Source of the DNA: Cytophagaceae bacterium
GTDB taxonomy: Bacteria; Bacteroidota; Bacteroidia; Cytophagales; Spirosomataceae
NCBI GenBank assembly: GCA_005791165.1
Contig: SXXW01000033.1
Location: 1-64,000 of the forward strand
Length of the DNA stretch: 64,000 nt
Direction: 5' to 3'
Below the pieces are notes generated by a model. That model ran no database searches. It saw only the letters and a program-made list of their open reading frames with translations, and was not told where the DNA came from. Positions 408 to 16,788 of this stretch are shown one piece after another (positions within the stretch are counted from its first letter, which is position 1; each line of letters begins with the position of its first letter). The position numbers and the translations under genes are program-made.

Positions 408-3400
408 ATGAAAAAAATCTTTATTACTTTTTTGGTTTTTTGCTTAAGCAATTTTGTTGTTTTGGCCCAAAACCATAGCGTAAGTGGTACGGTAAAGGAT
501 ACAGACGGAGCCGCACTGCCAGGTGTCAATATCATCGTAAAGGGTACGAATAAAGGTACTAGCACAAATAATGAAGGCAAGTTTAGCCTAAATGGTATCT
601 CTGAAAAGGCTAGTTTAATTATCACTTTTGTGGGCTACACAAAACAAGAAGTAGACATTGATGGCCGTAGTAAAATTGATATAAACTTAGTTTCGGACGA
701 TCAAGTATTGAATGAAGTCGTAGTAGTAGGTTACGGTACGCAGCAAAAAGTTAACCTTACTGGGGCTGTCGGAGTAGCCACCTCTGAAAGGATTCAAAGT
801 CGACCTATTGCCAATACCGGGGAAGGTTTACAAGGAGTAATTCCTAACCTTAATGTAAACGTAAGAAATGGAGACCCTTCTCAGTCACCAACATTTAATA
901 TCAGAGGCTTTCAGTCTATTAATGGTGGCTCACCACTTATTTTGGTTGATAACGTTCCTATGGATATTAACCGAATTAACCCGAATGATATTAAAAGTGT
1001 ATCAGTACTAAAAGATGCGGCTGCTGCTGCAGTTTATGGGGCTAGAGCAGCCTTTGGTGTTATTTTAATTGAAACTAAGTCTGGCTCGTCAGGTAAAGTT
1101 CAAGTAAATATAAGTTCCCAGGTTTCAATGGCAAAGCCTATTTTTAATATGGATGTCGTGACAGATCCTTACGAATTTGTCACCGCTCGTAATAAGGCGA
1201 ATATACGTACCTCTGGTGTACCCTCATATGATGCAGATTTTGTAGAGAAAACGAAGCGATATTCCGAAAACCCAACCTTTGAAAATTCATGGGGCGTGGT
1301 GAATGGAAGTTTACGTTACTATGGATTTAATAATTACCAGAATCAAATAATGACTGATTTTGCTCCTACTCACCAGCATGATGTTTCAGTATCAGGAGGT
1401 TCAGAAAAAAGTAGTTATTATCTTTCATTGGGTCATTTAAGTAAAGATGGATACATAAAGCCAGCTAATAACGAGAAGTTTAAGCGTAATAATTTAATGA
1501 TGAAAGCCGATTTTAAAATCAATAAATGGATTACATTAAACGAAAAAGTAATATTTAATCAGCAAAATAGTGATAAACCCCACTTTTATAATTGGGACGT
1601 AAATATCAATACGCTTGCACGTGTAAACCCTATTCAACCGATACAATTTCCTGATTTGCCTTTTTATCAATTGCAAGGAGATAGAGAACAATATGCGCCG
1701 TTAATCGGTAAGTATTTTGATGGAACCAACTGGTTTCCATACCTTTTAGATGGTGGTCGTGAAACCTTTACTAACAATGATTTGTGGTTGACCCAGGGCC
1801 TAACCCTAACACCTGCTGAAGGTTTGAAAATTATCGGATCTTTTTCGCATAATTCTTTTAGTAGAGAATATAAAGATGTGCAAAGTAAAGTAGATATTGT
1901 TTCACCTGATTTAAGAAACCCAAAACCTATTAGTAATGGATTCAGTGGCGACGATTGGGTGAGAAATGAAAGCAGAATAAATAGGTATAATGTAATCAAT
2001 ATTTATGGTGATTATTCTTTTCCTTTTTTACCTAAAAAACATGTCCTGAACCTAATAGCTGGATTTAACCAAGAAGATGCCAATTTTAGATATGTAGGAG
2101 CAAGAGCCAGAGGCTTAATAACCCCACTTATTCCAAATATTGGTGCCACAATAGGCAATCAAGAAACCTTTGGCTCAGAAGAGCATTTTTCATTAAGAGG
2201 TGTTTTCTATCGTTTAGGTTATAATTTTGATGAGCGCTATTTATTAGAATTAAATGGCCGCTATGATGGTTCTTCTCGTTTCCCCAAAGATACAAGATTT
2301 GGATTTTTCCCTTCAGTATCAGCTGGTTGGAGAATCAGCGAAGAAGCTTTTATGAAAGACCTTACTTGGGTATCTAATTTAAAGCTTAGGGGTTCTTATG
2401 GTACATTAGGAAATCAAACACTTAGAAACGATAATATAGAACTTTACTACCCATACTTAGCTACTTATGGGGCAGGGCGTGCTCCTTATCAATTTGGATC
2501 TGGTATGGTACCATTTATTGCGGCACCAGGCCTTGTTAGCCCTGGCCTTACTTGGGAAACAGTGGTCTCGAAAAACATAGGACTAGACGTTTCTTTATGG
2601 AATAATAGATTGGATGCCTCTTTTGATGTCTATACTAGAGACACTAAAGATATGTTAATGAATGTTTCATACCCTGATATTTTGGGTACGATCGCTCCTA
2701 AGGAAAATGCAGCAGATTTGCGTACCAAAGGATGGGAGGCGAGCCTAACGTATAAAAATAGTAAAGGTAAAGACTTTAGTTATGATGTAACGCTTGCTTT
2801 ATCCGATGCTACGGCCGCAATAACAAAATTTAGCAATCCTACTGGAGCTATTAATAACACTTTCAGAGTAGGCCAACAATTGGGTGAAATATGGGGTTTT
2901 GAAACTGTTGGAATATTCCAAACGGCCGACGAAGTAAAAGCCGCAGCTGACCAGTCAGGTTTGGGCAACAACTGGCGGGCTGGCGATATCCAGTATGCGG
3001 ATTTGAACGGGGATAGAAAAATAAATTATGGTGCTAATACCATTTCTAATCCGGGTGATCGTAAAATTATCGGGAATTCTACCCCTCGTTATACCTTTGG
3101 AATAAATAGTAGTATAAGATGGAAAAATTTCAATGCCAACATATTTTTTCAAGGAATTGGTAGCCAAGATTTTTGGCCTTCAGACGGTAACTGGACGTGG
3201 TTTTTCCCTTTCAATGCAGGTCATGTGGAGCGTTATTATATTACGGATACTTGGACGGAAGAAAATCGTAACGCGTATTTTCCGGCAGCACATATTTCTA
3301 CTAATGATGGTAAAAACAAAATTGCACAGTCTCGCTTTTTGCAAAATGCAGGCTATATGAGATTGAAAAACATACGCTTTGGCTATGATTTACCATCTAA

Positions 3401-3569
3401 AATCTCTAAAAAAGTGGCTATGAATAATGTACAGTTTTTTGTGGTGGGAGCCAATCTTTGGGAATATACCAAACTTAGAAAACCATTAGACCCAGAATCT
3501 ATTCAAAGTGGTGCGATTGAGTATCCAATGCAACGGTTATTTACTTTTGGTATTAACTTATCTCTATAA
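408..3569 (+). CDS. susC: SusC/RagA-family TonB-dependent outer-membrane transporter
   Basis: This 1053-residue protein is the outer-membrane channel half of a SusCD glycan importer, energised through TonB. A signal peptide (residues 1-20, cleavage after VVLA before Q21) is followed by a carboxypeptidase-regulatory-like beta-sandwich (about 25-95, with the LPGVNIIVKGT motif). Next come a TonB-box-like segment around 101-111 (LNEVVVVGYGT) and a plug carrying the SusC signature around 185-220 (PLILVDNVPM, DIKSVSVLKDAAAAAVYGAR). The rest is a beta-barrel ending in the terminal strand FGINLSL. The length is normal. susD starts 20 bases downstream, so the two are co-transcribed. The loaded sugar cannot be read from this protein, but the downstream lyases point to a uronic-acid polysaccharide. 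Confidence 0.95.
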   Translation: MKKIFITFLVFCLSNFVVLAQNHSVSGTVKDTDGAALPGVNIIVKGTNKGTSTNNEGKFSLNGISEKASLIITFVGYTKQEVDIDGRSKIDINLVSDDQVLNEVVVVGYGTQQKVNLTGAVGVATSERIQSRPIANTGEGLQGVIPNLNVNVRNGDPSQSPTFNIRGFQSINGGSPLILVDNVPMDINRINPNDIKSVSVLKDAAAAAVYGARAAFGVILIETKSGSSGKVQVNISSQVSMAKPIFNMDVVTDPYEFVTARNKANIRTSGVPSYDADFVEKTKRYSENPTFENSWGVVNGSLRYYGFNNYQNQIMTDFAPTHQHDVSVSGGSEKSSYYLSLGHLSKDGYIKPANNEKFKRNNLMMKADFKINKWITLNEKVIFNQQNSDKPHFYNWDVNINTLARVNPIQPIQFPDLPFYQLQGDREQYAPLIGKYFDGTNWFPYLLDGGRETFTNNDLWLTQGLTLTPAEGLKIIGSFSHNSFSREYKDVQSKVDIVSPDLRNPKPISNGFSGDDWVRNESRINRYNVINIYGDYSFPFLPKKHVLNLIAGFNQEDANFRYVGARARGLITPLIPNIGATIGNQETFGSEEHFSLRGVFYRLGYNFDERYLLELNGRYDGSSRFPKDTRFGFFPSVSAGWRISEEAFMKDLTWVSNLKLRGSYGTLGNQTLRNDNIELYYPYLATYGAGRAPYQFGSGMVPFIAAPGLVSPGLTWETVVSKNIGLDVSLWNNRLDASFDVYTRDTKDMLMNVSYPDILGTIAPKENAADLRTKGWEASLTYKNSKGKDFSYDVTLALSDATAAITKFSNPTGAINNTFRVGQQLGEIWGFETVGIFQTADEVKAAADQSGLGNNWRAGDIQYADLNGDRKINYGANTISNPGDRKIIGNSTPRYTFGINSSIRWKNFNANIFFQGIGSQDFWPSDGNWTWFFPFNAGHVERYYITDTWTEENRNAYFPAAHISTNDGKNKIAQSRFLQNAGYMRLKNIRFGYDLPSKISKKVAMNNVQFFVVGANLWEYTKLRKPLDPESIQSGAIEYPMQRLFTFGINLSL

Positions 3570-3589: not shown

Positions 3590-5356
3590 ATGAAAAATAT
3601 ATTAATAACCCTTATTGTTCTCCTTTTTGTTGCTACTAGCTGTAACGATGAGTTTTTGGAGCGATATCCTTTGGATTCAATTACTGCTGAAACTTTCTGG
3701 AATACGGAAAACGATCTATCTGTATACAATAATAGTTTATACAATTTGGCCAGAAATGATTTGAATGTGCCTATTATGATGGGTCATGACGAAGGATTTA
3801 ACAGTAATTTTCTTAGTATTTGGTATTTGGACGAAATGAGTGATAATGCTACTAGTGTACATCCTCGCCATAATTTTTATGCCCAAATTAGAGCTGGGAA
3901 ACATATTGCCACGGTAAACCCTGATAACTATGGCTATCGTGGATGGAATTTTGTCCGTGCTATAAATATTGGTTTGGCCAACTATGGTAAGGCTAAAGTT
4001 ACAGATGCTATTCGAAACAGGTATGTTGGTGAGGCGAGACTATTTAGAGGATGGTTTTATGCAGATAAAGTAAGTAAATATGGCGATGTGCCTTACATTG
4101 AAAAAGAGCTAAATACAGAGTCGGAAGAGCTATTTGCAGCAAGAACCCCTCGGGTTCAAGCGATGGATAAAATTTTTGATGACCTAGCATTTGCTGCCAA
4201 GAACCTTCCGGATAGTTGGGGAGATGGCGGTGCTCCGGGAAGATTAAACCGTTGGTGTGCGTTGTTAGTACAAGCTAGAGTTTGCCTTTTTGAGGGAACA
4301 TGGCGTAAATATCACGGTATACCCGGTGGGCAAAAGTTCCTTGAAACTGCTGCGGCTGCATCAAAGGAATTGATTGAAAAAGGTCCATATAAAATATTTA
4401 CTACCGGAAATCCTAATAAGGATTATAATTCCTACATGCAAGCTTTAAATCTATCTGGTAACCCAGAGGTGATGTATTGGAGAAAATATACGCTTGGCGT
4501 CATAACGAACCACGTTCAATCGTACTTTGAATACCACGGTGGAGCTACTCGAGATTTTGTGGAGGATTATTTATGTACTGATGGCCTTCCTATTTCATTA
4601 TCAAAGCTATATAAAGGAGATGGTAAAATAGAAGATTCTTTTGAGAATAGAGATCCTAGGATGCGCCAGACAATTCTTCACCCAAGTGATGTCTCGGTGT
4701 ATAAATACCATTTGAATGATGGGCGTGCTTACCCGCGACTTAATGGAATGGCCGGTGGTAGAATATCAAATACAGGTTACCATGTAATTAAAAATTATAA
4801 TGCCGATGATATGATCGGAAAAGCTTTTAACACTGCTGAGTCTCCTGCAATTACGCTTAGATTGGCCGAAGGCTTACTCATTTATGCGGAAGCGCAAGCC
4901 GAATTAGGTAAAATTTCTCAGGGTGATTTAGATATGAGTATTAATAAACTTCGTGACCGAGTTAAAATGCCTCATTTAAAATTGGATAATATTCCAGTGG
5001 ATCCTAAATATGTAGCTGAAGGTATTTCACCAGTATTAGCCGAAATCAGACGAGAAAGAAGAATCGAATTGTTTAATGAAGGATTCCGATACGATGACCT
5101 TCGACGCTGGAAACGAGGAGCTAAGCTGAAAATTAAATCATTGGGATTAGCTATGGATGCTTCACAAAAGGAACGATATAAAGGTTTCGTTGTTAGACTT
5201 TATAAGGACCCCGTTAATGGCAAGGAATATTTAGAGCCTTATGCGGGCTCAGATTTTGCTGATCCTGTTTTCGAAGAGACAAAGCATTATCTCTGGCCTA
5301 TTCCTTTGAATATTTTGGCTCAAAACCCTGCTATTAAGCAAAATCCTGGTTGGTAA
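3590..5356 (+). CDS. susD: RagB/SusD-family surface glycan-binding lipoprotein
   Basis: This 588-residue lipoprotein is the lid of the SusCD importer and captures glycan at the cell surface. A lipoprotein signal ends at Cys18 (LLFVATSC), followed by the typical EFLERYPLDSITAETFW start of mature SusD proteins. The helical TPR-like core includes GYRGWNFVRAINIGLANY, and the C-terminal half has the SusD motif region AEIRRERRIELFNEGFRYDDLRRW. The end, ILAQNPAIKQNPGW, is typical of the family. It partners the SusC protein encoded immediately upstream. A strong hairpin follows the stop codon. Confidence 0.95.
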   Translation: MKNILITLIVLLFVATSCNDEFLERYPLDSITAETFWNTENDLSVYNNSLYNLARNDLNVPIMMGHDEGFNSNFLSIWYLDEMSDNATSVHPRHNFYAQIRAGKHIATVNPDNYGYRGWNFVRAINIGLANYGKAKVTDAIRNRYVGEARLFRGWFYADKVSKYGDVPYIEKELNTESEELFAARTPRVQAMDKIFDDLAFAAKNLPDSWGDGGAPGRLNRWCALLVQARVCLFEGTWRKYHGIPGGQKFLETAAAASKELIEKGPYKIFTTGNPNKDYNSYMQALNLSGNPEVMYWRKYTLGVITNHVQSYFEYHGGATRDFVEDYLCTDGLPISLSKLYKGDGKIEDSFENRDPRMRQTILHPSDVSVYKYHLNDGRAYPRLNGMAGGRISNTGYHVIKNYNADDMIGKAFNTAESPAITLRLAEGLLIYAEAQAELGKISQGDLDMSINKLRDRVKMPHLKLDNIPVDPKYVAEGISPVLAEIRRERRIELFNEGFRYDDLRRWKRGAKLKIKSLGLAMDASQKERYKGFVVRLYKDPVNGKEYLEPYAGSDFADPVFEETKHYLWPIPLNILAQNPAIKQNPGW

Positions 5357-5384: not shown

Positions 5385-5426
5385 AACATCCATGCCACAC
5401 CTTTCGAAAAGTGTGGCATGGATGTT
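5385..5426 (+). terminator. Strong hairpin after susD
   Basis: A perfect 16-bp stem (5385-5400 with 5411-5426) encloses a 10-base loop that contains TTTCGAAA. No long U-run follows, only TTTAAA-type sequence. It may therefore be a partial terminator or an mRNA-stabilising 3' structure that separates high susCD expression from the enzyme genes downstream. Confidence 0.7.
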
Positions 5427-5574: not shown

Positions 5575-6666
5575 ATGGATGTAAAAAAAATACCGTTATT
5601 AATTGCAGTTTTACTTTTTTCATTTTGTAAAATTTTGGCGTAAAAAACTGCCGTTAGTATTGTAAAGGATCAATTCTATATCAATGGAAAACCAACCTAC
5701 CCAGGTAGGTATTGGCAAAATCTTAAAATTGAAGGTCTTTTAATGAATGCGAAAATGGTTCAAGGTGTATTTGATGATCTTAACCCTGAAATTTCATCTG
5801 AATTTCAATATCCTGATACTCAAATGTGGGATGCCACAAGAAATAACAATGAATTTGTAAAAGCTATGCCCCAATGGAAAGCCCATGGCTTACTTTCCTT
5901 TACATTAAATATGCAAGGCGGAAGCCCATATGTCTATGGTAACAAAAAGTGTATTAACCCAGGTTTTCATTCGGATGGTCGCCTCATGATACCCTATATG
6001 AATCGGCTTGAAAATATTCTTAGAAAGGCTGATGAATTAAATATGGTTGTGATTCTAGGCCTTTTTTATTTTGGACAAGATCAATTCCTTAAGGATGAAA
6101 AGGCCGTGATAAATGCGGTGAGGAACGTAAGAAACTGGCTATTGAAAAAAGGCTATCAAAATGTAATGATTGAAATTGCCAATGAGTGTGATCACAAAGA
6201 TTACGACCATGCCATTCTTCGGCCAGATCGAATTTCTGAATTAATCAATCTAGTGAAGAATAAAAAGAAAAATGGAAATCGTTTACTAGTAAGTACAAGC
6301 TTCACAGGGCGAAAAGTGCCTAATGACCCCATTATTAAAGCCTCAGATTTTCTTCTGATTCACGGAAATGGAGCAAAAAACACAGCAGACATTCAACGTT
6401 TGATAGATCATACAAAAGCATCTAAAGCCTATCAGAACATACCCATAATAAATAATGAAGACGACCATTATGATTTTGAAAAGGAAACTAATAACATGAT
6501 AGTTTCTATAAAAAATTACGTTTCTTGGGGCTATTTTGATTTTCGATTTAAAGGTGAAACAGATTTCAATGAAGGCTATCAAACTATACCTGTAAATTGG
6601 AATATAAGTTCTACAAGAAAAAAAGCATTTTTTGCTAAATTGAGAGAAATAACAGAAAGCAATTAA
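5575..6666 (+). pseudogene. Clan GH-A-like (cellulase-type TIM barrel) glycosidase, interrupted by a stop codon after the signal peptide
   Basis: Reading from ATG 5575 gives a signal peptide (MDVKKIPLLIAVLLFSFCKILA), and then codon 23 is TAA (5641-5643). The same frame continues without further stops through KTAVSIVKDQFYINGKPTYP to 6666. A CAA (Gln) there would recreate the usual LA|Q cleavage site, so a single C-to-T change explains the break. The next in-frame ATG (5743) would give a 307-residue product without export signal. In that numbering, IEIANE (acid/base candidate Glu148, preceded by Asn as in clan GH-A) and INNEDDHYD (nucleophile candidate Glu239) look intact. It sits inside a PUL, so an exported glycan hydrolase is expected. 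The GH family is not assigned. Confidence 0.75.
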
Positions 6667-6686: not shown

Positions 6687-7829
6687 ATGAAAATAATAAC
6701 CAGAACTAAATTAAATATCGGTATTGCATTGATATCCTGCTTGACTCTTTTGCTATCTTGTGCAACTAAACCCCCTTTAAAGTCCTTTGAAAAACCCCAG
6801 ATTGAATCTGCAATGATCAAAGCAATGCAATGGCAAGAGAAAAATTTTAAATATGGTAAAGGACCAACAGATTGGACCAATGGAGCTTTTTACACAGGAA
6901 TAATGCGAGCGCATTTAGCTACGCAAAACACTGTTTTTAAAGATGCAATAATCAATATGGGGCGTAAAAATGAATGGAAAACCTACGATAGATATTTTCA
7001 TGCTGATGATATCGCTATTGCCGCATCATATATTTATCTCAAAAAAAATGGCAATGATGAAGCGAACTTAGAAGCTACTGATGCTTGGATATATGACCAT
7101 TTAAATAAGCCTCATGATTGGAAAGTAGGAATAGGAAGTGCTGAGCAAAAAATACTATGGTGGTGGTGTGACGCACTTTTTATGGCGCCACCCGTATTGG
7201 TCAATTATTCGAATCTTAAAAAGGATAGCCAATATTTGGACGAAATGCATAAATATTACATGCAAACCTATGAGTACTTATTCGACAAAGATGAAAAGTT
7301 ATTTTATCGAGATAATCGTTTTTTCATAAAAGGAGATCCCTCAGATAAACTGGAACGCAACGGCAAAAAAGTTTTTTGGTCAAGAGGGAATGGTTGGGTA
7401 TTGGCGGGCCTTGCATTGATTCTTGACGATATGCCCAAAAATTATGTTCATCGTCCTTTCTACGAAAATCTTTTTAAAACGATGTCTGCGAGAATATTAG
7501 CCTTGCAACCGAGCGATGGCCTATGGCGTACTAGCTTGCTTGATCCTGATAGTTTTATGCATGGAGAAGCAAGTGGAAGTGGTTTCCATACTTTTGCTTT
7601 AGCCTGGGGAATTAATCAAGGCATACTATCAAAAGAAAACTATCTCCCTAGTGTATTAAAGGCGTGGACAGCATTAGAAAAATGCCAACAAGAAAACGGT
7701 ATGATAGGCTGGGTACAAGCCATTGGTTTTGACCCCAAACCTGCCGACAAGGACTCTTGGTTTAATTTTGGAACCGGTGCCTTTTTATTGGCTGGAAGTG
7801 AAATGCTAAAAATGAAGTCAGATAAATAA
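6687..7829 (+). CDS. Unsaturated uronyl hydrolase, GH88/GH105 (YesR/YteR) family lipoprotein
   Basis: The protein has 380 residues with a lipoprotein signal ending at Cys25 (LTLLLSC), so it is probably anchored in the periplasm or outer membrane. The (alpha/alpha)6 barrel family removes the 4,5-unsaturated uronic acid that polysaccharide lyases leave on oligosaccharides. Visible family motifs are DWTNGAFYTG (62-71), HADDIAIA (105-112), WWWCDALFMAPP (158-169, with Asp162 as candidate catalytic acid) and FWSRGNGWVLAGLAL. The GH105 members act on unsaturated galacturonyl or glucuronyl residues, and GH88 members on GAG products; I cannot separate them by eye. It lies 20 bases after the broken glycosidase and upstream of the lyases whose products it would process. 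Confidence 0.88.
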   Translation: MKIITRTKLNIGIALISCLTLLLSCATKPPLKSFEKPQIESAMIKAMQWQEKNFKYGKGPTDWTNGAFYTGIMRAHLATQNTVFKDAIINMGRKNEWKTYDRYFHADDIAIAASYIYLKKNGNDEANLEATDAWIYDHLNKPHDWKVGIGSAEQKILWWWCDALFMAPPVLVNYSNLKKDSQYLDEMHKYYMQTYEYLFDKDEKLFYRDNRFFIKGDPSDKLERNGKKVFWSRGNGWVLAGLALILDDMPKNYVHRPFYENLFKTMSARILALQPSDGLWRTSLLDPDSFMHGEASGSGFHTFALAWGINQGILSKENYLPSVLKAWTALEKCQQENGMIGWVQAIGFDPKPADKDSWFNFGTGAFLLAGSEMLKMKSDK

Positions 7830-7866: not shown

Positions 7867-9687
7867 ATGAAAAAAACACTTTTTTTCTTATTGGTTTTCT
7901 CGTTTTTCAAGGCAAATTCACAAAATTTGCCTGGCCACCCAAGAATAATATTGCTAAAAAATGAAGAAAATATCATTGCCGCTAACATAAAAAATGATAA
8001 AAATTGGGCAAAAATACACCAAACTATTTTGGCCGAAAGCGATAAAATTATTGTTTTACCCACTTTAGAGCGTATCCAAATTGGACGTCGTTTATTAGAT
8101 AAATCTAGAGAGTGTTTGCGAAGGGTATTCTTTCTTTCATATGCATATCGTATATCAAAAGATAAAAAATATTTTGACCGATGTGAAGCCGAATTATTGA
8201 AGGTTTGCCAATTTTCAGATTGGAATCCTAGTCATTTTCTAGATGTTGCCGAAATGACTTTGGGCGTATCAATAGGCTATGATTGGCTTTATGATAATTT
8301 ATCTGAAAATTCTCGAAATATTATTAAACAAGCTATATTGAAAAAAGGAATTGAGCCTTCGCTTGATCCAAAATACAATTCGTGGCTCAGCGTAAGCCAC
8401 AATTGGAATCAGGTTTGTAATGCCGGGATGACCTATGGTGCTTTAGCTATTTATGAGGAAAACCCAACACTCTCAAAACAAATTATTGCCCGAGCCAAGG
8501 AATCAATCAAAATGCCATTAGAAGACTATAATCCTGATGGAGCTTACCCCGAAGGCTACGGGTATTGGGGTTACGGAACTAGCTTTCATATATTGTTTTT
8601 AAGTGCTCTACAAACCATACAATTAATCGATAACCAAATAGATAGCGGGTTAATTAAAACTGCTTCATACTTTCAAAACATGCTAGGTACCTCTGGTAAA
8701 AGCTTTAATTATTCAGATGCTGGCAATGGTGCTGGCCTTAACGCGGCCATGTTTTGGTTTGCTTATCAATCAAAAAATAACAGCCTGCTTTTCAACGAAA
8801 AAAATTATTTGGATGATGCCTCAAAAATGGGTGGTAATAGAATTTTACCAGCTGCGATGATTTGGGGGAAAGACCTGAAATTAGATCAAATTGATGTCCC
8901 AACGCAAAAAACTTGGATGGGCCAAGGGAAAAGCCCGGTGGCTATGATGCGCAGTTCCTGGACAGATAAAAATGCTATTTATGTGGGTTTAAAAGCAGGA
9001 TCAGCTGCTGTAAATCATGCACATATGGATATTGGCTCTTTTGTCATGGATGCTTATGGCGAGCGTTGGGCCATGGATTTAGGTATGCAAGAATATGAAT
9101 CGCTGGAGTCGAAAGGTGTAAAGTTATGGGACAAAACCCAAAATGGGCAGCGTTGGGAAATTATGAGATACAACAATCATTATCATAACACCTTAAGTTT
9201 CGACAATGAGCTACAGCTAGTTGAAAAAAAAGCCACAATAATTCAAAATACCACAACACCCAATTTTATGAGTGCTGTAACAGACCTCAGCTCTATTTAT
9301 GAAAACAAAATAAAAGAAGCAAAGAGAGGGCTTGCGATACTACAAAATGATATTGTCGTAATTAAAGATGAAATTACGAATAATGAAAAGCCTACTCAAA
9401 TGAAATGGCTAATGGTCACACAAGCCGATGTAAAAATTTTAAATGCTAATACTTTTCAATTAACCCAGAATGGAAAAAAAATGTATTTAAAAGTACTTGC
9501 GAATACAAAAATTGAACTAAAAATCTGGAACACTGATGCGGTAAATTCTTTTGATGCACCTAATCCAGGTACAATTAGAATTGGTTTTTTGGCTAATTTG
9601 GCTGCTAGTCAAAAAGGCGATTTTACTGTTCTTTTATCATCAAATAATAAAATAGTGAAAGTAAAACCTTTAAATCAATGGAAATAA
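7867..9687 (+). CDS. Heparinase II/III-type polysaccharide lyase (first of two)
   Basis: This 606-residue secreted protein (signal peptide about 1-19, cut before QNLPGHPR) has an alpha/alpha toroid followed by a beta-sandwich, as in heparinase II/III relatives. Candidate active-site motifs are SHNWNQVCNAG (177-187), YPEGYGYWGYG (227-237) and NHAHMDIGSF (383-392), plus NNHYHNTLSF further on. These His, Tyr and Asn residues fit a beta-elimination lyase acting on uronic acids. The PL family number (PL12, 15, 17, 21 and others share this fold) is not decidable here. Its stop codon overlaps the next gene's start by 10 bases, indicating translational coupling. Confidence 0.87.
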   Translation: MKKTLFFLLVFSFFKANSQNLPGHPRIILLKNEENIIAANIKNDKNWAKIHQTILAESDKIIVLPTLERIQIGRRLLDKSRECLRRVFFLSYAYRISKDKKYFDRCEAELLKVCQFSDWNPSHFLDVAEMTLGVSIGYDWLYDNLSENSRNIIKQAILKKGIEPSLDPKYNSWLSVSHNWNQVCNAGMTYGALAIYEENPTLSKQIIARAKESIKMPLEDYNPDGAYPEGYGYWGYGTSFHILFLSALQTIQLIDNQIDSGLIKTASYFQNMLGTSGKSFNYSDAGNGAGLNAAMFWFAYQSKNNSLLFNEKNYLDDASKMGGNRILPAAMIWGKDLKLDQIDVPTQKTWMGQGKSPVAMMRSSWTDKNAIYVGLKAGSAAVNHAHMDIGSFVMDAYGERWAMDLGMQEYESLESKGVKLWDKTQNGQRWEIMRYNNHYHNTLSFDNELQLVEKKATIIQNTTTPNFMSAVTDLSSIYENKIKEAKRGLAILQNDIVVIKDEITNNEKPTQMKWLMVTQADVKILNANTFQLTQNGKKMYLKVLANTKIELKIWNTDAVNSFDAPNPGTIRIGFLANLAASQKGDFTVLLSSNNKIVKVKPLNQWK

Positions 9688-11144
9688 GACCTTGGGTTTT
9701 TTTGGTTTTAAATTTTATTGTTTCCGTCTCTAAGGCTCAAGAAATGGTCACTTTAAATCTTAAAGACGATGGTTTCAGAGGGATTTGGTATTTTATTGGT
9801 AAAACTAACAACGAATATGTTCATAAATATAGCGGTGGTTTAGGCACTTATCCAGCTAATCATTATCCATTTTCAGTATATTCCGCGAAAGTGAACAAAA
9901 CCTTTTTTTGTTACGGAGGGGCGTCGAAAGACGCTAAGCCAAGCTTATTACACGAGGTGGCCTATTTTGATCATAAAACAAAATCGCTAAGCCGTCCCAC
10001 CATTGTTTTGAATAAGAATACAGATGATGCCCATGACAATCCGGTGATTAGTATTGACAAAGACGGCTATATTTGGCTATTTTCTACTTCGCATGGAGTA
10101 AATCGCCCGTCATATATCCACAAAAGTGTTAAACCTTTTGATATAGAAAAATTCGAGTTGGTAAAAGCAACATATTTTAAAGATGGTGAACAAAGACCTT
10201 TTGATAATTTTTCTTATTCACAAATATATTATGATAAAGAAAATGGATTTATGGGCTTTATGACTCACTATGATATAGGCGTGCTTAAATATGGTACAAA
10301 TAAACCTAGAAGAACCTCTGCTTTTATTACGAGTAAAGATGGCATTTCTTGGTCTGAATTAAAGGATATTGGTGCTATACAAGAAGGGCACTATCAATCT
10401 AGTGGTTATACAAAACTACCGAATGGTCAAGTGAAGTATGTCACTATTTTCAATTATCATCCTGATACAGAAAAGGGTGCCGGTTTAGATTTCAGAGCAA
10501 ATATCTACTACTTAGAAACCACAGATTTTGGTCGAAGTTGGCAAAATTGTAAAGGAGAAAATATGAATCTACCTTTAAAAACCGTTGTAAACCCAGCTTT
10601 GGTTCTTGACACACAGAAAGATAGAAAACTCGCTTACATCAATGATCTTGGTTTTGATGAAAAAGGAAATCCTATGTTTTCATATATTTCAAGTTTTGGG
10701 CCGGAACCAGGACCAGAAAATGGGCCTTACGAATTAAAAACTGCTTTTTTTAATGGGCAAGAGTGGCTCTACAAAAAAGTGGCTGATGTGGACCATAATT
10801 ATGACTTTGGCTCTTTGTATTATATTAATGGCCAATGGCGCTTATTAGCTCCGAAAGAAAATACACCTTTTGCATACAATACTGGTGGCGAGGTTCAACT
10901 TTGGAAATATGCCACAAAAAAAGCGAAATGGGAACTGTCAAATTCATTGACTAATAATAGTAACACGAACCATTCCTATCCTAGAAAACCCATTAATTAC
11001 CATGCTGATTTTCAGGCTTTTTGGGCAGATGGAAATCCACGAAAAGCCAGTAAATCATTTTTTTATATTTCCAATAATAAAGGAGAAGTTTTTCAATTAC
11101 CCTATCAGTTCAAGACTCAATTAGTTAAACTTTCGAAGCAATGA
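9678..11144 (+). CDS. BNR-repeat beta-propeller protein, possible PL24/PL25-like lyase
   Basis: The 488-residue protein has a signal peptide of about 20 residues (SKA before Q21) and then repeated beta-propeller blades of the BNR_4 type (for example SIDKDGYIWLFSTSHG, ITSKDGISWSEL, ETTDFGRSWQN). This fold is used by ulvan lyases of families PL24/PL25. Two histidines 20 residues apart (His119 in DDAHDNP, His139 in STSHG) and nearby Tyr residues are reminiscent of their active sites; that is an inference. The start overlaps the upstream lyase gene by 10 bases, so the two are co-translated. Alternatively it could be a non-catalytic glycan-binding propeller or a sialidase-like hydrolase. Confidence 0.75.
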   Translation: MEIRPWVFLVLNFIVSVSKAQEMVTLNLKDDGFRGIWYFIGKTNNEYVHKYSGGLGTYPANHYPFSVYSAKVNKTFFCYGGASKDAKPSLLHEVAYFDHKTKSLSRPTIVLNKNTDDAHDNPVISIDKDGYIWLFSTSHGVNRPSYIHKSVKPFDIEKFELVKATYFKDGEQRPFDNFSYSQIYYDKENGFMGFMTHYDIGVLKYGTNKPRRTSAFITSKDGISWSELKDIGAIQEGHYQSSGYTKLPNGQVKYVTIFNYHPDTEKGAGLDFRANIYYLETTDFGRSWQNCKGENMNLPLKTVVNPALVLDTQKDRKLAYINDLGFDEKGNPMFSYISSFGPEPGPENGPYELKTAFFNGQEWLYKKVADVDHNYDFGSLYYINGQWRLLAPKENTPFAYNTGGEVQLWKYATKKAKWELSNSLTNNSNTNHSYPRKPINYHADFQAFWADGNPRKASKSFFYISNNKGEVFQLPYQFKTQLVKLSKQ

Positions 11145-11297: not shown

Positions 11298-13490
11298 ATG
11301 AAAAAAATCAAAATCACACTTTTACTGATCCTACTAGTTCAACAATTGGGAATGGCCCAAACTAACGACCTTGTTACCATCAAAAAAAGGGTCATTGAAG
11401 AGTTATTTTTAATCAAACCTGATGATAAAGTTATTGAAGTAATATTGTCAAAACTTAATGAGGACGGCAGCTTTAATGATATTAATTATACTGATCTCAG
11501 CCGAACAGCAAGTTTCCCACATGGACAACATACCAACAATTTAGCTAGTATGGGCAAGGCTTTCAACACCAAATCTTCCGTGTTTTATCAAAGTGAAAAA
11601 GTAAAAAGTAGTGTTATAAAAGGCCTAGAGTTTTGGGTAAAAAATGATTTTGTAGGTGATAATTGGCATGATAATCAAATAACTACGCCAACCAATCTAG
11701 TAAATTTGATGCTTGCCATGGGAAATGATTTACCTAAAGAGTTGGTAAACAAAGCACAGCCGATGATTAATAGGGCCAATATGGGCGCCTCTGGTGCTCG
11801 TCCAAGTGGCGATAGAATTGTAATAGCTGGTTTAGTGGCCAAGAATTGCCTGTTTTTGGGAAAAGACGCAGCATTTGACGACATAATAAAAATAATAGCC
11901 GATGAAATGAAATTTTCTACGGGCCAAAGAGGTATTCAGCACGATTATAGTTTTCACCATAGGCCAGACAGGGTGAATAACACCGACTCTTATGGTTATG
12001 GTAAATTTGCCAATGCCTTTGGCGAATGGTCGCTATACGTAGCTGGAACAATATATAAATTTCCCATTGAAAAAATAAATATGCTAATAGACTATTACCT
12101 TGACGGCATTTACAAACAGCAAGTATATGGTGTGTATGATGACGTGTCGGTCAAAAATAGAAGTATTGCAGGTAAAACTTTGTTTAAACCCAAAGATACG
12201 CGTGAAATTGAAAGGTTGTTGGTTAGCACGAGTTATCGTAAAAAAGAACTAGAAGAAATAATAAAATTGAGAAAAGGTGCAGGTAGTCCCACTCAATCTT
12301 TTGCTAAGTTTTTTTGGCAAACAGAACATTTTGTATTTCAGAGACCAGAGTTTTATACCTCCGTAAGAATGTTTTCAACTAGAAATCGAAACATGGAAGA
12401 GCCTTACAATGGTCCCGGAAAAACTACTCACCACCGAGCTGATGGTACCAACTATTTGGTTTTGAAAGGAGATGAATATCATAATATTTGGGCGGCTTAC
12501 GACTGGCAGAAAATATCCGGCACGACCACAATGCAAAAACCTGCACTGCCGGACGCCACTCAGATTCAAAAAGATGGTTTAACAAATTTTGTAGGTGCGG
12601 TAACCGACGGCCTTTATGGAGCAGTTGCTTTTGACTTTAAAAGTCCGCATGATATGTTAGAGACTAAAAAATCTTGGTTCTTTTTTGATAAAGAATATGT
12701 TTGCCTCGGGGCAGGTATAAAGCCAAAATCTAACCTACCTGTGGCCACCACTGTGAATCAAGTTTTATTAAAAAGCGATGTAAACATCAAGCAAAATGGA
12801 GCGATAAAAATACTTCCCAATGGCAATAGATTAGCTGAAAATGTAAAGTGGGTCCATCAAGATAATGTGGGGTACCTGTTTCCTACATCTACCACGATAC
12901 ATATTTCTAACCAGACAGAAACTGGCCGTTGGTCAGACCTTACCGACCAAAAAAATATAAGTAAAGAGCTAGTAAGCACTAATATTTTCAAACTTTGGTT
13001 TAACCATGGGGATAAAATTAATGAAACCGATATTCATGGAAGCCGAATAATGAAGAATAGGCCAATATATGAATACATTGTAGTGCCTAATGTAAGTGTT
13101 GAAAATTTGGACGAAACTAGCCAAAATAATAGAGGAATTGAAATCTTATCTAATACTGAGGATCTTCAGGTAGTCAAGCACCATATCTTGGGTCAGGTGC
13201 AATTAGCCTTTTACAAAGCTGGTGAAATAGTCATAGATAAGGGGAAAAAAGTAAAAATGGAAAGCCAAGGCATGGCGCTTTTAAAAATTAAAAATGGAAA
13301 AATTGCTGAGTTGACCCTTGCTGACCCTTCCAGAAATTTGAATAAAATCATGATTACTTTGCCAGGCATTTATACCTTAAAAAGGGAAGGGGTGTTAACT
13401 CTTCCCAATGCAAAAAGTGAACATACCATCTTTATTGTCGACCTACCTCAAGGAGTGTTTTTAGGAAAAAGTGTTCATGTAAAGTTATAA
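11298..13490 (+). CDS. Polysaccharide lyase family 8 (chondroitin AC/hyaluronate/xanthan lyase type)
   Basis: This is a 730-residue secreted lyase with a signal peptide (cut near GMAQ, residue 20). The N-terminal alpha/alpha toroid carries NWHDNQITTP (122-131), matching the conserved PL8 NWW/H-D segment, SGARPSGDRIVIAG (165-178) and GIQHDYSFHHRPDR (212-225) with a nearby SYGYG, the usual His/Tyr catalytic region. The central beta-sandwich starts around 350 with MFSTRNRNMEEPYNG and HHRADGTNYLVLKGDEY followed by the ISGTTT motif. PL8 enzymes cleave hyaluronan, chondroitin or xanthan by beta-elimination. The specificity here is unknown. It is separated from the previous gene by 153 bases. Confidence 0.88.
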   Translation: MKKIKITLLLILLVQQLGMAQTNDLVTIKKRVIEELFLIKPDDKVIEVILSKLNEDGSFNDINYTDLSRTASFPHGQHTNNLASMGKAFNTKSSVFYQSEKVKSSVIKGLEFWVKNDFVGDNWHDNQITTPTNLVNLMLAMGNDLPKELVNKAQPMINRANMGASGARPSGDRIVIAGLVAKNCLFLGKDAAFDDIIKIIADEMKFSTGQRGIQHDYSFHHRPDRVNNTDSYGYGKFANAFGEWSLYVAGTIYKFPIEKINMLIDYYLDGIYKQQVYGVYDDVSVKNRSIAGKTLFKPKDTREIERLLVSTSYRKKELEEIIKLRKGAGSPTQSFAKFFWQTEHFVFQRPEFYTSVRMFSTRNRNMEEPYNGPGKTTHHRADGTNYLVLKGDEYHNIWAAYDWQKISGTTTMQKPALPDATQIQKDGLTNFVGAVTDGLYGAVAFDFKSPHDMLETKKSWFFFDKEYVCLGAGIKPKSNLPVATTVNQVLLKSDVNIKQNGAIKILPNGNRLAENVKWVHQDNVGYLFPTSTTIHISNQTETGRWSDLTDQKNISKELVSTNIFKLWFNHGDKINETDIHGSRIMKNRPIYEYIVVPNVSVENLDETSQNNRGIEILSNTEDLQVVKHHILGQVQLAFYKAGEIVIDKGKKVKMESQGMALLKIKNGKIAELTLADPSRNLNKIMITLPGIYTLKREGVLTLPNAKSEHTIFIVDLPQGVFLGKSVHVKL

Positions 13491-13747: not shown

Positions 13748-15670
13748 ATGATGAAAGTTTTGATTTTTTGCCTTATAATTTCAATTTCTGGCTTTTCACA
13801 GGTAAGCGAAAGGAATATTTTGTCTCAGAAATATTCGTTAGAATTTGTTTCTAAAAATTTGATTCCCCACAATGAATGGAAGCCATATCCGAAAACGAAT
13901 CAGGAATGGCAGGCTATTTTGACTCCCGTGCAAATTGATGAAATAATCAAAATTGCGGAAAACTTTTTGAATAGCCCTATTGCCGAAATTACTGGCTCTA
14001 TGGCTATGGATTTTGTTCGGTCTGGAGATAGGGAAAATCACGGAAAGGCATCTTATGGTCGTAGAAACCATTTGGTGCCATTGATTATAGCTGAAAGTAT
14101 TGAAAATAAAGGACGATTCACCGAAAAGATTTTTAACCTTATATGGGCTATTTGTGAGGAAAGTTATTGGGGTGTACCCGCCCATATTCGTAGTACTGGG
14201 CTACCCGATATTGAAAACCCTGTTGTTGATTTATTTGCCGCTGAAACTGCCGCAGTATTAGGTTTAGCTGACTATTTGATCGGTGAAAAAATGGACAACA
14301 TTAATCATTTAATCAGAAAAAGAATTTATTTTGAAACGAATAGAAGGGTTTTGCAACCCATTAAAAAATGGGAAAATTATTTTTACCTAAGTCGCACAAA
14401 ACCAGTCAATAATTGGAATCCGTGGATCATTTCAAACCTTTTGATGGCCAATTTATTTTTGGAAAAAAATGAAACTAGGAGGGCGGAAAATGTAAAAGAT
14501 TATTTATTTCATTTAGATGCCTACTTAAATAGTTTAGGTGATGATGGTGGTTGCAATGAGGGTCCTACTTATTGGTTTCATGCTGGGGCTTCTGTATTTG
14601 ACTTTCTCGAAATTATGAAAAGCGTTTCTAAAGGAAAAATCAATATTTATCATGAGCCTTTGATAAAAAATATGGCTTCCTATGTATATAAAATGCACAT
14701 TTCTAATACTTATTTTGTGAATTTTGCTGATGCAGATCCAAAAATTGAGGACCCCGATGGCTTGCTGCTTTATCGGTTTGGAAAGGCAATTGACGACGAG
14801 AAAATGATAGCAATGGGGCAATGGGCATTTTATAAGTTTAATCAAGAAATGACTGTTCCGGGAAGAAATTCAATGCGAGTGATGGAAAACCTGATGTATA
14901 GAAATAAAATTCCCATGCAGACCGGACAGTATCAACCCAGCGGAACTTATTATATTGCAGATATTCAGGTACTTAGTTCAAGAACAAAACAAGACTTATT
15001 CTTGGCGACACATGGGGGACACAATGCCGAAAGTCATAACCATAATGATGTGGGGGACTTTATTGTATATGCTAATGGAGAACCTATAATAATCGACCCT
15101 GGTCGTGGAAATTATACAGCTCGCACCCAAACACAACGTTACGACTTATGGTATACGCAGTCAAACTATCATAATCTACCCATCATCAATGGTATCGGGC
15201 AAAGAGTTGGGCGAGAATTTGAGGCAAAAGAGGTTAAATCTATTGTCAATGAAAGTGAAGCAACGTTAAAAATGAATATTGCCTCAGCCTATGAAAAAGA
15301 AGCAAAAGTTCAATCTTGGAATCGCTCAATAAGCTTAAATCATCAGAAAAATAGGGTTGAAATTTTGGAAGATTATGTTTTAATCGATAGACCAATTTCA
15401 TTGCAGCAAGTATTCATGACGGTATGTAAAATTAATATAGATACACCGGGTACCATTGTACTTGAAGCTGAGCATTCAAAATTTGAGATTAGCTATGACC
15501 CAAAACTTTGGAAGCCAAGCATTGAACTAGCCTCTACAGAAGGCATGGAATATAAAAAATTTAAAACTAATTGGGGTGGCAAGCCAGTTTCCAGAATAAT
15601 TCTTGAAAATAAAACCCTCAAGCAAAAAGGTAAGTATGGATTTGTGGTGAAAGAGTTATCTAGTAAATAA
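13748..15670 (+). CDS. Heparinase II/III-type polysaccharide lyase (second)
   Basis: A 640-residue secreted protein with a short signal peptide (about 1-17, GFSQ). The toroid domain shows CEESYWGVPAHI (136-147), NNWNPW (221-226) and CNEGPTYWFHAG (269-280). The beta domain carries SHNHNDVGDFIVYANG (429-444) and IDPGRGNYTA, the signature of heparinase II/III-like proteins. It is not a close copy of the first lyase: motif wording differs throughout, so it probably makes a different cut. Two ATG codons are adjacent (13748 and 13751) and the first is taken. It is the last gene of the PUL as seen here. Confidence 0.86.
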   Translation: MMKVLIFCLIISISGFSQVSERNILSQKYSLEFVSKNLIPHNEWKPYPKTNQEWQAILTPVQIDEIIKIAENFLNSPIAEITGSMAMDFVRSGDRENHGKASYGRRNHLVPLIIAESIENKGRFTEKIFNLIWAICEESYWGVPAHIRSTGLPDIENPVVDLFAAETAAVLGLADYLIGEKMDNINHLIRKRIYFETNRRVLQPIKKWENYFYLSRTKPVNNWNPWIISNLLMANLFLEKNETRRAENVKDYLFHLDAYLNSLGDDGGCNEGPTYWFHAGASVFDFLEIMKSVSKGKINIYHEPLIKNMASYVYKMHISNTYFVNFADADPKIEDPDGLLLYRFGKAIDDEKMIAMGQWAFYKFNQEMTVPGRNSMRVMENLMYRNKIPMQTGQYQPSGTYYIADIQVLSSRTKQDLFLATHGGHNAESHNHNDVGDFIVYANGEPIIIDPGRGNYTARTQTQRYDLWYTQSNYHNLPIINGIGQRVGREFEAKEVKSIVNESEATLKMNIASAYEKEAKVQSWNRSISLNHQKNRVEILEDYVLIDRPISLQQVFMTVCKINIDTPGTIVLEAEHSKFEISYDPKLWKPSIELASTEGMEYKKFKTNWGGKPVSRIILENKTLKQKGKYGFVVKELSSK

Positions 15671-16074
15671 TACATTGATAATCAATTTTATACTGTTTGT
15701 AAGCCTTTGTCAGGTTTATCTAAATGGTCATGATACCATTAAGTTTTTTACCCTGTAAATCGAAAGCGAAATTAGACTGATAGCGGCAACTTTATGAATG
15801 GTTTAATTTTAAAACAAAACTAGATCTCGACCGAAATCTCGACTCGTGCTATGCAATTGGCTATCGCTCTCATTATATGAAGGAATACCTATTTTTGATA
15901 TTCATTCTGATGTATTTAATGGTTGAGTTATAGGTTTGAACAAATAAAAATCTCATTAATATCTTATAGAATTAATATATTCTAATTTTTATGATTTATT
16001 CTATAGGAGTGTGGTGAGTTAAAATCAGTCTCTTGTGCTCTTTTGTTTGCTGCTATGGAATGAAGGTGTTTGCT
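15671..16074. other. Non-coding stretch downstream of the PUL
   Basis: About 400 bases of AT-rich DNA with stops in all frames and no recognisable gene, RNA or strong terminator. It may be decayed DNA between the PUL and the tRNA-Val boundary. Confidence 0.5.
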
Positions 16075-16257
16075 TTATTTCAGTTGGGTCGTATCCACAC
16101 GGCTAGGGGTATCTTCCCCGGATATAATACTCGTTGCGTAAAACTTCCCAGTGTTCTGGGATTGAACAAGCTCTAGTCCTCCTGAGAGTTTAAGAAGGAC
16201 AAATGTTTGGCCACTCGTTGAGTTGACCTTTTCCATGTAATCTGATACAATTACCAT
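16075..16257 (-). CDS. Small hypothetical protein (60 residues), possibly a truncated mobile-element accessory protein
   Basis: The ORF reads MVIVSDYMEKVNSTSGQTFV and onward, with a central VQSQNTGKFYAT. I recall similar small proteins with a VQSxxTGxFYATxRK segment in Bacteroidota mobile elements, but cannot verify it. Such proteins usually continue past this point in a different way, so the C-terminus (SIISGEDTPSRV) may be frameshifted or eroded. It lies alone in more than 1 kb of otherwise gene-free DNA. Chance ORF remains possible. Confidence 0.4.
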   Translation of the reverse strand: MVIVSDYMEKVNSTSGQTFVLLKLSGGLELVQSQNTGKFYATSIISGEDTPSRVDTTQLK

Positions 16258-16589: not shown

Positions 16590-16658
16590 TTTGTAATTGA
16601 GAGTAAACAGAAGTAAACGAGAGTATTAATTAAAAACTTGTACCTATGTTGTACCTGT
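16590..16658. repeat. Short direct repeats beside tRNA-Val, possible attachment region
   Basis: AGTAAAC occurs twice separated by three bases (near 16601-16617) and GTACCT twice separated by five bases (near 16640-16656). Closely spaced direct repeats next to a tRNA 3' end are typical of integrase arm- or core-site regions. No integrase gene is in the window, so this is an inference. Confidence 0.35.
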
Positions 16659-16694: not shown

Positions 16695-16712
16695 ACTTAA
16701 AGTTATTGTATG

Positions 16713-16788
16713 TGGTCCCACTAGGATTCGAACCTAGGACCCCCTGCTTGTAAGGCAGGTGCTCTGAACCAGCTGAGCTATAGGAACA
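16713..16788 (-). tRNA. tRNA-Val (anticodon TAC)
   Basis: The minus strand folds into a 76-base tRNA. The anticodon arm is CCTGC-CTTACAA-GCAGG with anticodon TAC (Val), the T arm is CTAGG-TTCGAAT-CCTAG and the D arm is GCTC/GAGC. CCA is not encoded. The acceptor stem is imperfect: 5' GTTCCTA against 3' TGGGACC gives a T-C mismatch at pair 2-71 and a G-U at pair 6-67. The expected 5' strand would be GGTCCCA. Either the 5' strand mutated or the 3' half was replaced by an integrating element. Confidence 0.93.

Follow-up and report, generated by a model that had tools for sequence, protein, structure and literature searches.

A probable recent nonsense allele at the signal-peptide cleavage site of a predicted clan GH-A-type glycosidase

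The window, by which we mean the whole analysed stretch of 64,000 nucleotides, contains a polysaccharide utilization locus (PUL) in which an in-frame TAA cuts a glycosidase gene short at its signal-peptide cleavage site. Judging from comparison of the gene with its relatives, the interruption is probably an ordinary nonsense allele of recent origin, in a gene for a secreted clan GH-A-type glycosidase that belongs to a laterally variable PUL. The features used in the analysis are the following.

408..3569, + strand: SusC-like TonB-dependent receptor, open frame; assigned by its place before SusD and by tblastn to other SusC-like copies
3590..5356, + strand: SusD-like lipoprotein, open frame
5575-6666, + strand: glycosidase gene, annotated span from ATG 5575 to the stop codon 6664-6666
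5575..5640, + strand: signal-peptide-like start of 22 codons, MDVKKIPLLIAVLLFSFCKILA, from the translation
5641..5643, + strand: in-frame TAA at the signal-peptide cleavage site, codon 23 counted from ATG 5575
5644..6666, + strand: intact remainder and stop, predicted from frame, alignment and fold to encode an uncharacterised clan GH-A-type (beta/alpha)8 glycosidase
5743..5745, + strand: first canonical start codon downstream of the TAA, corresponding to Met 34 of the mature frame and immediately ahead of barrel strand 1
6184..6186 (GAG), + strand: Glu 181 of the mature frame, candidate acid/base, following Asn180 at the end of barrel strand 4
6457..6459 (GAA), + strand: Glu 272 of the mature frame, candidate nucleophile, on barrel strand 7
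6687..7829, + strand: GH88-family gene, open frame
7867..9687, + strand: heparinase II/III-like protein, open frame
9678..11144, + strand: BNR_4 protein, matched only in its own genome among 38 of the genus
11298..13490, + strand: PL8 lyase, chondroitinase AC-like (below that model's cutoff), open frame
13748..15670, + strand: heparinase II/III-like protein, open frame
15767..15922, + strand: degenerate copy of a repeat dispersed in the genus (E 2e-17), right after the PUL
16712..16787, - strand: tRNA-Val(TAC), edge of the backbone common to congeners

The initial annotation had placed the TAA at codon 23 of the 5575 frame and had described the rest of the frame as intact over about 340 codons. 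The coordinates and the codon number are correct, and the open frame is confirmed: 340 codons (5644-6663) lie behind the TAA, without a further stop or a frameshift, up to the closing stop at 6664-6666. The signal peptide of the interrupted gene was judged by eye from the N-terminus. A lone stop in one codon is no statistical anomaly by itself; it is more than chance here because 340 codons, conserved in distant relatives, run on in frame after it. A 19-pair inverted repeat at 5385-5426, in the gap that separates the SusD gene from the interrupted one, is terminator-like on the minus strand.

Twenty-five relatives (L002-L026) were aligned through the N-terminus. Their sources included one scan of genome contigs, which gave 17 loci at 50-70% identity, and a genome from another family of the same order (G040), which gave one further relative. 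The column of codon 23 holds a residue in all 25 and a stop in none of them; a premature in-frame stop absent from the homologues, as is taken to mark a pseudogene, is thus what the alignment contains. Among the relatives that could be fetched, the stop is by this alignment private to the window copy. Gln occupies the same column in seven relatives, encoded by CAA in six and by CAG in one, and lies one column later in eleven more (nine with A/G-Q-T, two with R-Q-T); the relatives have A|Q-KT or something similar at the same cleavage position. The proposal that 5641-5643 had been a Gln codon, CAA in particular, and that relatives should be inspected for it, is thereby supported, and we regard a Gln codon as the likely ancestral state of codon 23. 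That LA|Q cleavage sites are common in this genome also holds, by a crude rule of our own making: among 305 ORFs of at least 150 aa in 423 kb of the genome, 133 began in a signal-peptide-like way, and in 66 of them an [AGST]Q fell within the right zone (46 CAA and 20 CAG). Within the PUL, the signal-peptide-like stretch ends in A/S-Q in the SusC-like, BNR_4 and PL8 proteins and in both heparinase-like proteins. Another family member is also cut, namely the Larkinella soli homologue L022, where an in-frame TAG (8184-8186 in L022) stands at a position at which 15 aligned proteins all have Trp. We counted this in favour of a nonsense allele in the window.

The encoded protein matched no Pfam family above the cutoff, and a PDB sequence search with it yielded no meaningful match. 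The GH5 model PF00150 matched 11 of the 15 aligned members at E ≤ 1 (best 6.9e-6) and is absent from the table of the window protein itself, while PF13204, used to test for GH140, matched two of the 15 (best E 0.047). For 5644-6663 an eight-stranded barrel is predicted (mean pLDDT 87.2, pTM 0.91). When this model was compared with solved structures by VIA-align, the GH140 structure 8t9w matched with Z 22.1 (rmsd 3.2, 274 aligned) and the GH5 structure 3wfl with Z 21.6 (rmsd 3.1, 266 aligned); the GH140 score is tied with the GH5 matches, and sequence identity is 8-16% among the 50 matches listed. The structure-based alignment, which comprised 15 of the 26 proteins, has N180, E181 and E272 invariant in 15/15. 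In the predicted fold, N180-E181 closes the strand 174-180 and E272 lies within the strand 268-273. By the rule that we apply for clan GH-A, strands 4 and 7 each end in a Glu, and the Glu of strand 4 follows an Asn. Barrel and Glu pair support the original assignment as a glycosidase, and both candidate catalytic Glu motifs are, as had been stated, intact at 6184-6186 and 6457-6459. On this structural model the window enzyme is an uncharacterised clan GH-A-type glycosidase that retains both candidate catalytic Glu residues.

The neighbouring genes support the PUL context of the broken gene that had been assumed from the start. They include a GH88 gene, a PL8 lyase, two heparinase II/III-like proteins and a BNR_4 protein, which suggest a glycan with uronic acids. 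The BNR_4 gene was matched in one of 38 genus genomes, its own, and in none of the 16 with a completeness of 90% or more, and the PL8 gene is present in five of the 38, its own included. Long backbone stretches of the window are about 90-95% identical to five congeners (G028, G010, G014, G026 and G009), and DNA similarity to close congeners begins at the tRNA-Val gene (16712; in G026 at 16648). Upstream of the same tRNA-Val, the roughly 10 kb seen in G028 carry a different SusC/D pair (26-31% identity), the stretches of about 1 kb or less in G010 and G009 are unlike that of the window, and the contigs of G026 and G029 end within 70 bases. The gene order of the PUL was not found in 18 loci of relatives (L009-L026), several of them short, where all that matched was a GH88 homologue near L026 and distantly related SusC sequences (26-29%) in L014, L015, L016 and L022. 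A search of literature listings for polysaccharide utilization loci in Aquirufa, our guess at the genus, gave no match. From these comparisons the PUL looks like an accessory, swappable block.

The degenerate element right after the PUL belongs to a repeat of about 120-130 bp that occurs in several genomes of the genus (loci L097, L098, L099, L100-L104). Within a run the copies mostly point the same way and are separated by one to several genes; six lie within 16 kb of G029:C21. ORF sets of equal length, compared by length alone, recur in different neighbourhoods, so that the arrangement resembles a system of swappable modules. The repeat was also considered as a candidate integron attC system, but it gave no consensus fold. 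A search for an integron integrase in the 38 genomes gave none above the cutoff, and weaker matches occurred in 38/38 genomes and in 14/14 controls. A 67-base stretch at 16072-16138 is 98.5% identical to a sequence in G032 (L039 1594-1660), which there overlaps the end of a 421-aa ORF beside a paralogue of the broken enzyme; this stretch is likely a recombination scar.

The genome from which the window derives (G000) is in 42 contigs and 83.93% complete, and it holds a second, intact copy of the gene at C8:96169-97179, which is 63% identical to the window copy and has a signal-peptide-like start. The gene was matched in seven of the 38 genus genomes, its own included. In the six other genomes the copies, at 63-64% identity, cluster with the C8 copy rather than with that of the window. 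The suggestion that loss of export would change what the cell can use is weakened by this intact paralogue and by the accessory look of the PUL.

Since the frame has no other stop and no frameshift, any loss would be recent. There are 138 single changes among 3060 that would create a stop in the remaining frame, and none has occurred. For stops only, this bounds neutral decay (95%) at about 0.065-0.081 substitutions per site, or, on the assumption that indels amount to 5% of substitutions, at 0.031-0.034. Constraint was also assessed by counting departures from conserved columns. Of the 92 columns on which the 24 other rows of the 25-row set fully agree, the window copy departs at 3 (other rows 0 to 8), and in a set of 11 representatives drawn from the 26 rows it departs at 9 of 153 otherwise invariant columns (ten others 1 to 5). 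L022 was left out of these counts, of the tree and of the relative-rate tests, being itself interrupted. Relative-rate chi-square values against L025 range from 1.07 to 4.41 over seven outgroups and exceed 3.84 with two of them; the end branch of the window copy in the tree is 0.41 vs 0.31 for L025, its weakly supported sister. Taken as they stand, these values suggest that constraint on the window copy is at most mildly relaxed. We counted the 9 of 153 in favour of a nonsense allele, and the 25-row count and the relative-rate values against it. The dN/dS comparison proposed in the initial annotation was carried out, but it is uninformative on the last step because dS has reached saturation: it is 2.30 for the nearest relative and 2.25 for L015, and not computable for the other seven of the nine compared.

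There is a smaller chance that one wrong base in the consensus or assembly, or a minority variant called into a metagenome-type assembly, accounts for the stop, and that the cells keep an intact exported enzyme. The fragmentary state of the genome is consistent with this, as are the open frames kept by the other PUL genes. A further point in its favour comes from the same contig: the tRNA-Val(TAC) gene, the sole full-length copy found in the genome as assembled, has at 16786 a base that differs from 6/6 congeners and unpairs position 2 of the acceptor stem. This base, either an error or an odd mutation, hints at consensus errors in the contig. However, inspection of 94 congener ORFs that match the window gave five flagged cases and no convincing break among them. 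A different SusC accounts for one case, three ORFs run antisense to real genes, and in the fifth the stop falls within an N-terminal extension, ahead of the ATG of the window gene. A coding-potential scan gave 44/254 candidate internal stops in 423,443 bases, close to the 38/235 in 420,000 bases of the congener control G010, and thus no clear excess; the scan needs 45 open codons on each side and is blind to stops near a start, as here, and since most of its candidates are closely followed by a start codon and probably reflect ordinary adjacent genes, only the totals were compared. When broken genes were counted genome-wide in two samples with congener proteins as queries, 44/361 and 22/327 matched at ≥75% identity, which is too little overlap, and one per sample was flagged by partial coverage and none by a stop. 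Genuine nonsense alleles are, moreover, common in accessory genes.

We consider it quite improbable that the cell makes a shortened, unexported enzyme from ATG 5743 by reinitiation, with a cytoplasmic or other role. No in-frame ATG, GTG or TTG lies between the TAA at 5641-5643 and this ATG. The downstream frame is intact, and as the start falls just before barrel strand 1, all eight strands of the predicted barrel would be kept. The geometry would also suit coupling, in that a 19-codon out-of-frame ORF (5684-5743) ends in TAATG (5741-5745), overlapping the ATG. By a context matrix built from 219 sampled starts of the genome and 2444 internal ATGs, ATG 5743 scores above 88% of the internal ATGs; among the sampled starts, however, it is at the 5th percentile vs the 54th for ATG 5575. 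Starting there would also cost the protein its N-terminal hairpin (strands 3-7 and 10-13) as well as ten residues that do not vary among the 15 aligned proteins (V4, I6, F11, G15, P17, T18, W24, G31, L32 and L33), and substrates of such PULs are normally first processed outside the cytoplasm. Relatives that all carry the stop together with a conserved start at 5743, the finding that would have spoken for this form, were not seen; the stop occurs in 0/25 and Met 34 is not invariant among the aligned relatives. Low-level translational coupling at 5743 is conceivable but unlikely, and the more specific proposal that one base change relocated an active enzyme inward, as a cytoplasmic, signal-less form made by termination and reinitiation via the TAATG, is very improbable.

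Readthrough or recoding of the TAA at a useful rate, for which the intact downstream frame speaks, deserves hardly any credence and was rejected, as the stop is absent in 25/25 relatives and a TAA followed by A is, to our knowledge, no readthrough context.

We thus return to a nonsense allele as the preferred reading. A change at the Gln codon of the cleavage site, if this was the earlier state, would end translation after the 22-residue signal peptide, and no exported enzyme would be made. The remainder would still be intact because little time has passed since the change. About 1 kb would be left untranslated, which may exert polarity and reduce how strongly the genes downstream are expressed. 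The cell probably tolerates the loss, given the accessory look of the cluster and the intact paralogue elsewhere in the genome, whose start is signal-peptide-like. Among the options offered by the initial annotation, recent loss, polymorphism or error was the right set, whereas the unexported 5743 form is disfavoured. If the allele is real, it is a snapshot of an accessory polysaccharide cluster that is losing genes, in which one enzyme dies first while the rest stay open and the genes behind it may suffer polarity. It also illustrates why a single-base call in a fragmentary genome should be checked before an enzyme is declared absent from a strain. Neither point is new.

Compared with known systems, the predicted enzyme resembles clan GH-A, with GH5 and GH140 as the nearest solved folds, in its (beta/alpha)8 barrel, in the Asn-Glu that ends strand 4 and in the Glu on strand 7. 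It differs from them in its low sequence identity (8-16% among the listed matches) and in that the window protein falls into no Pfam family above the cutoff. The stop lies exactly at the cleavage codon, which sets it apart from a generic nonsense pseudogene and is, as far as the evidence goes, a coincidence of position. In other respects the gene is like a nonsense pseudogene or polymorphic null allele: one premature in-frame stop interrupts an otherwise intact, conserved gene that has intact relatives and an intact paralogue in the same genome.
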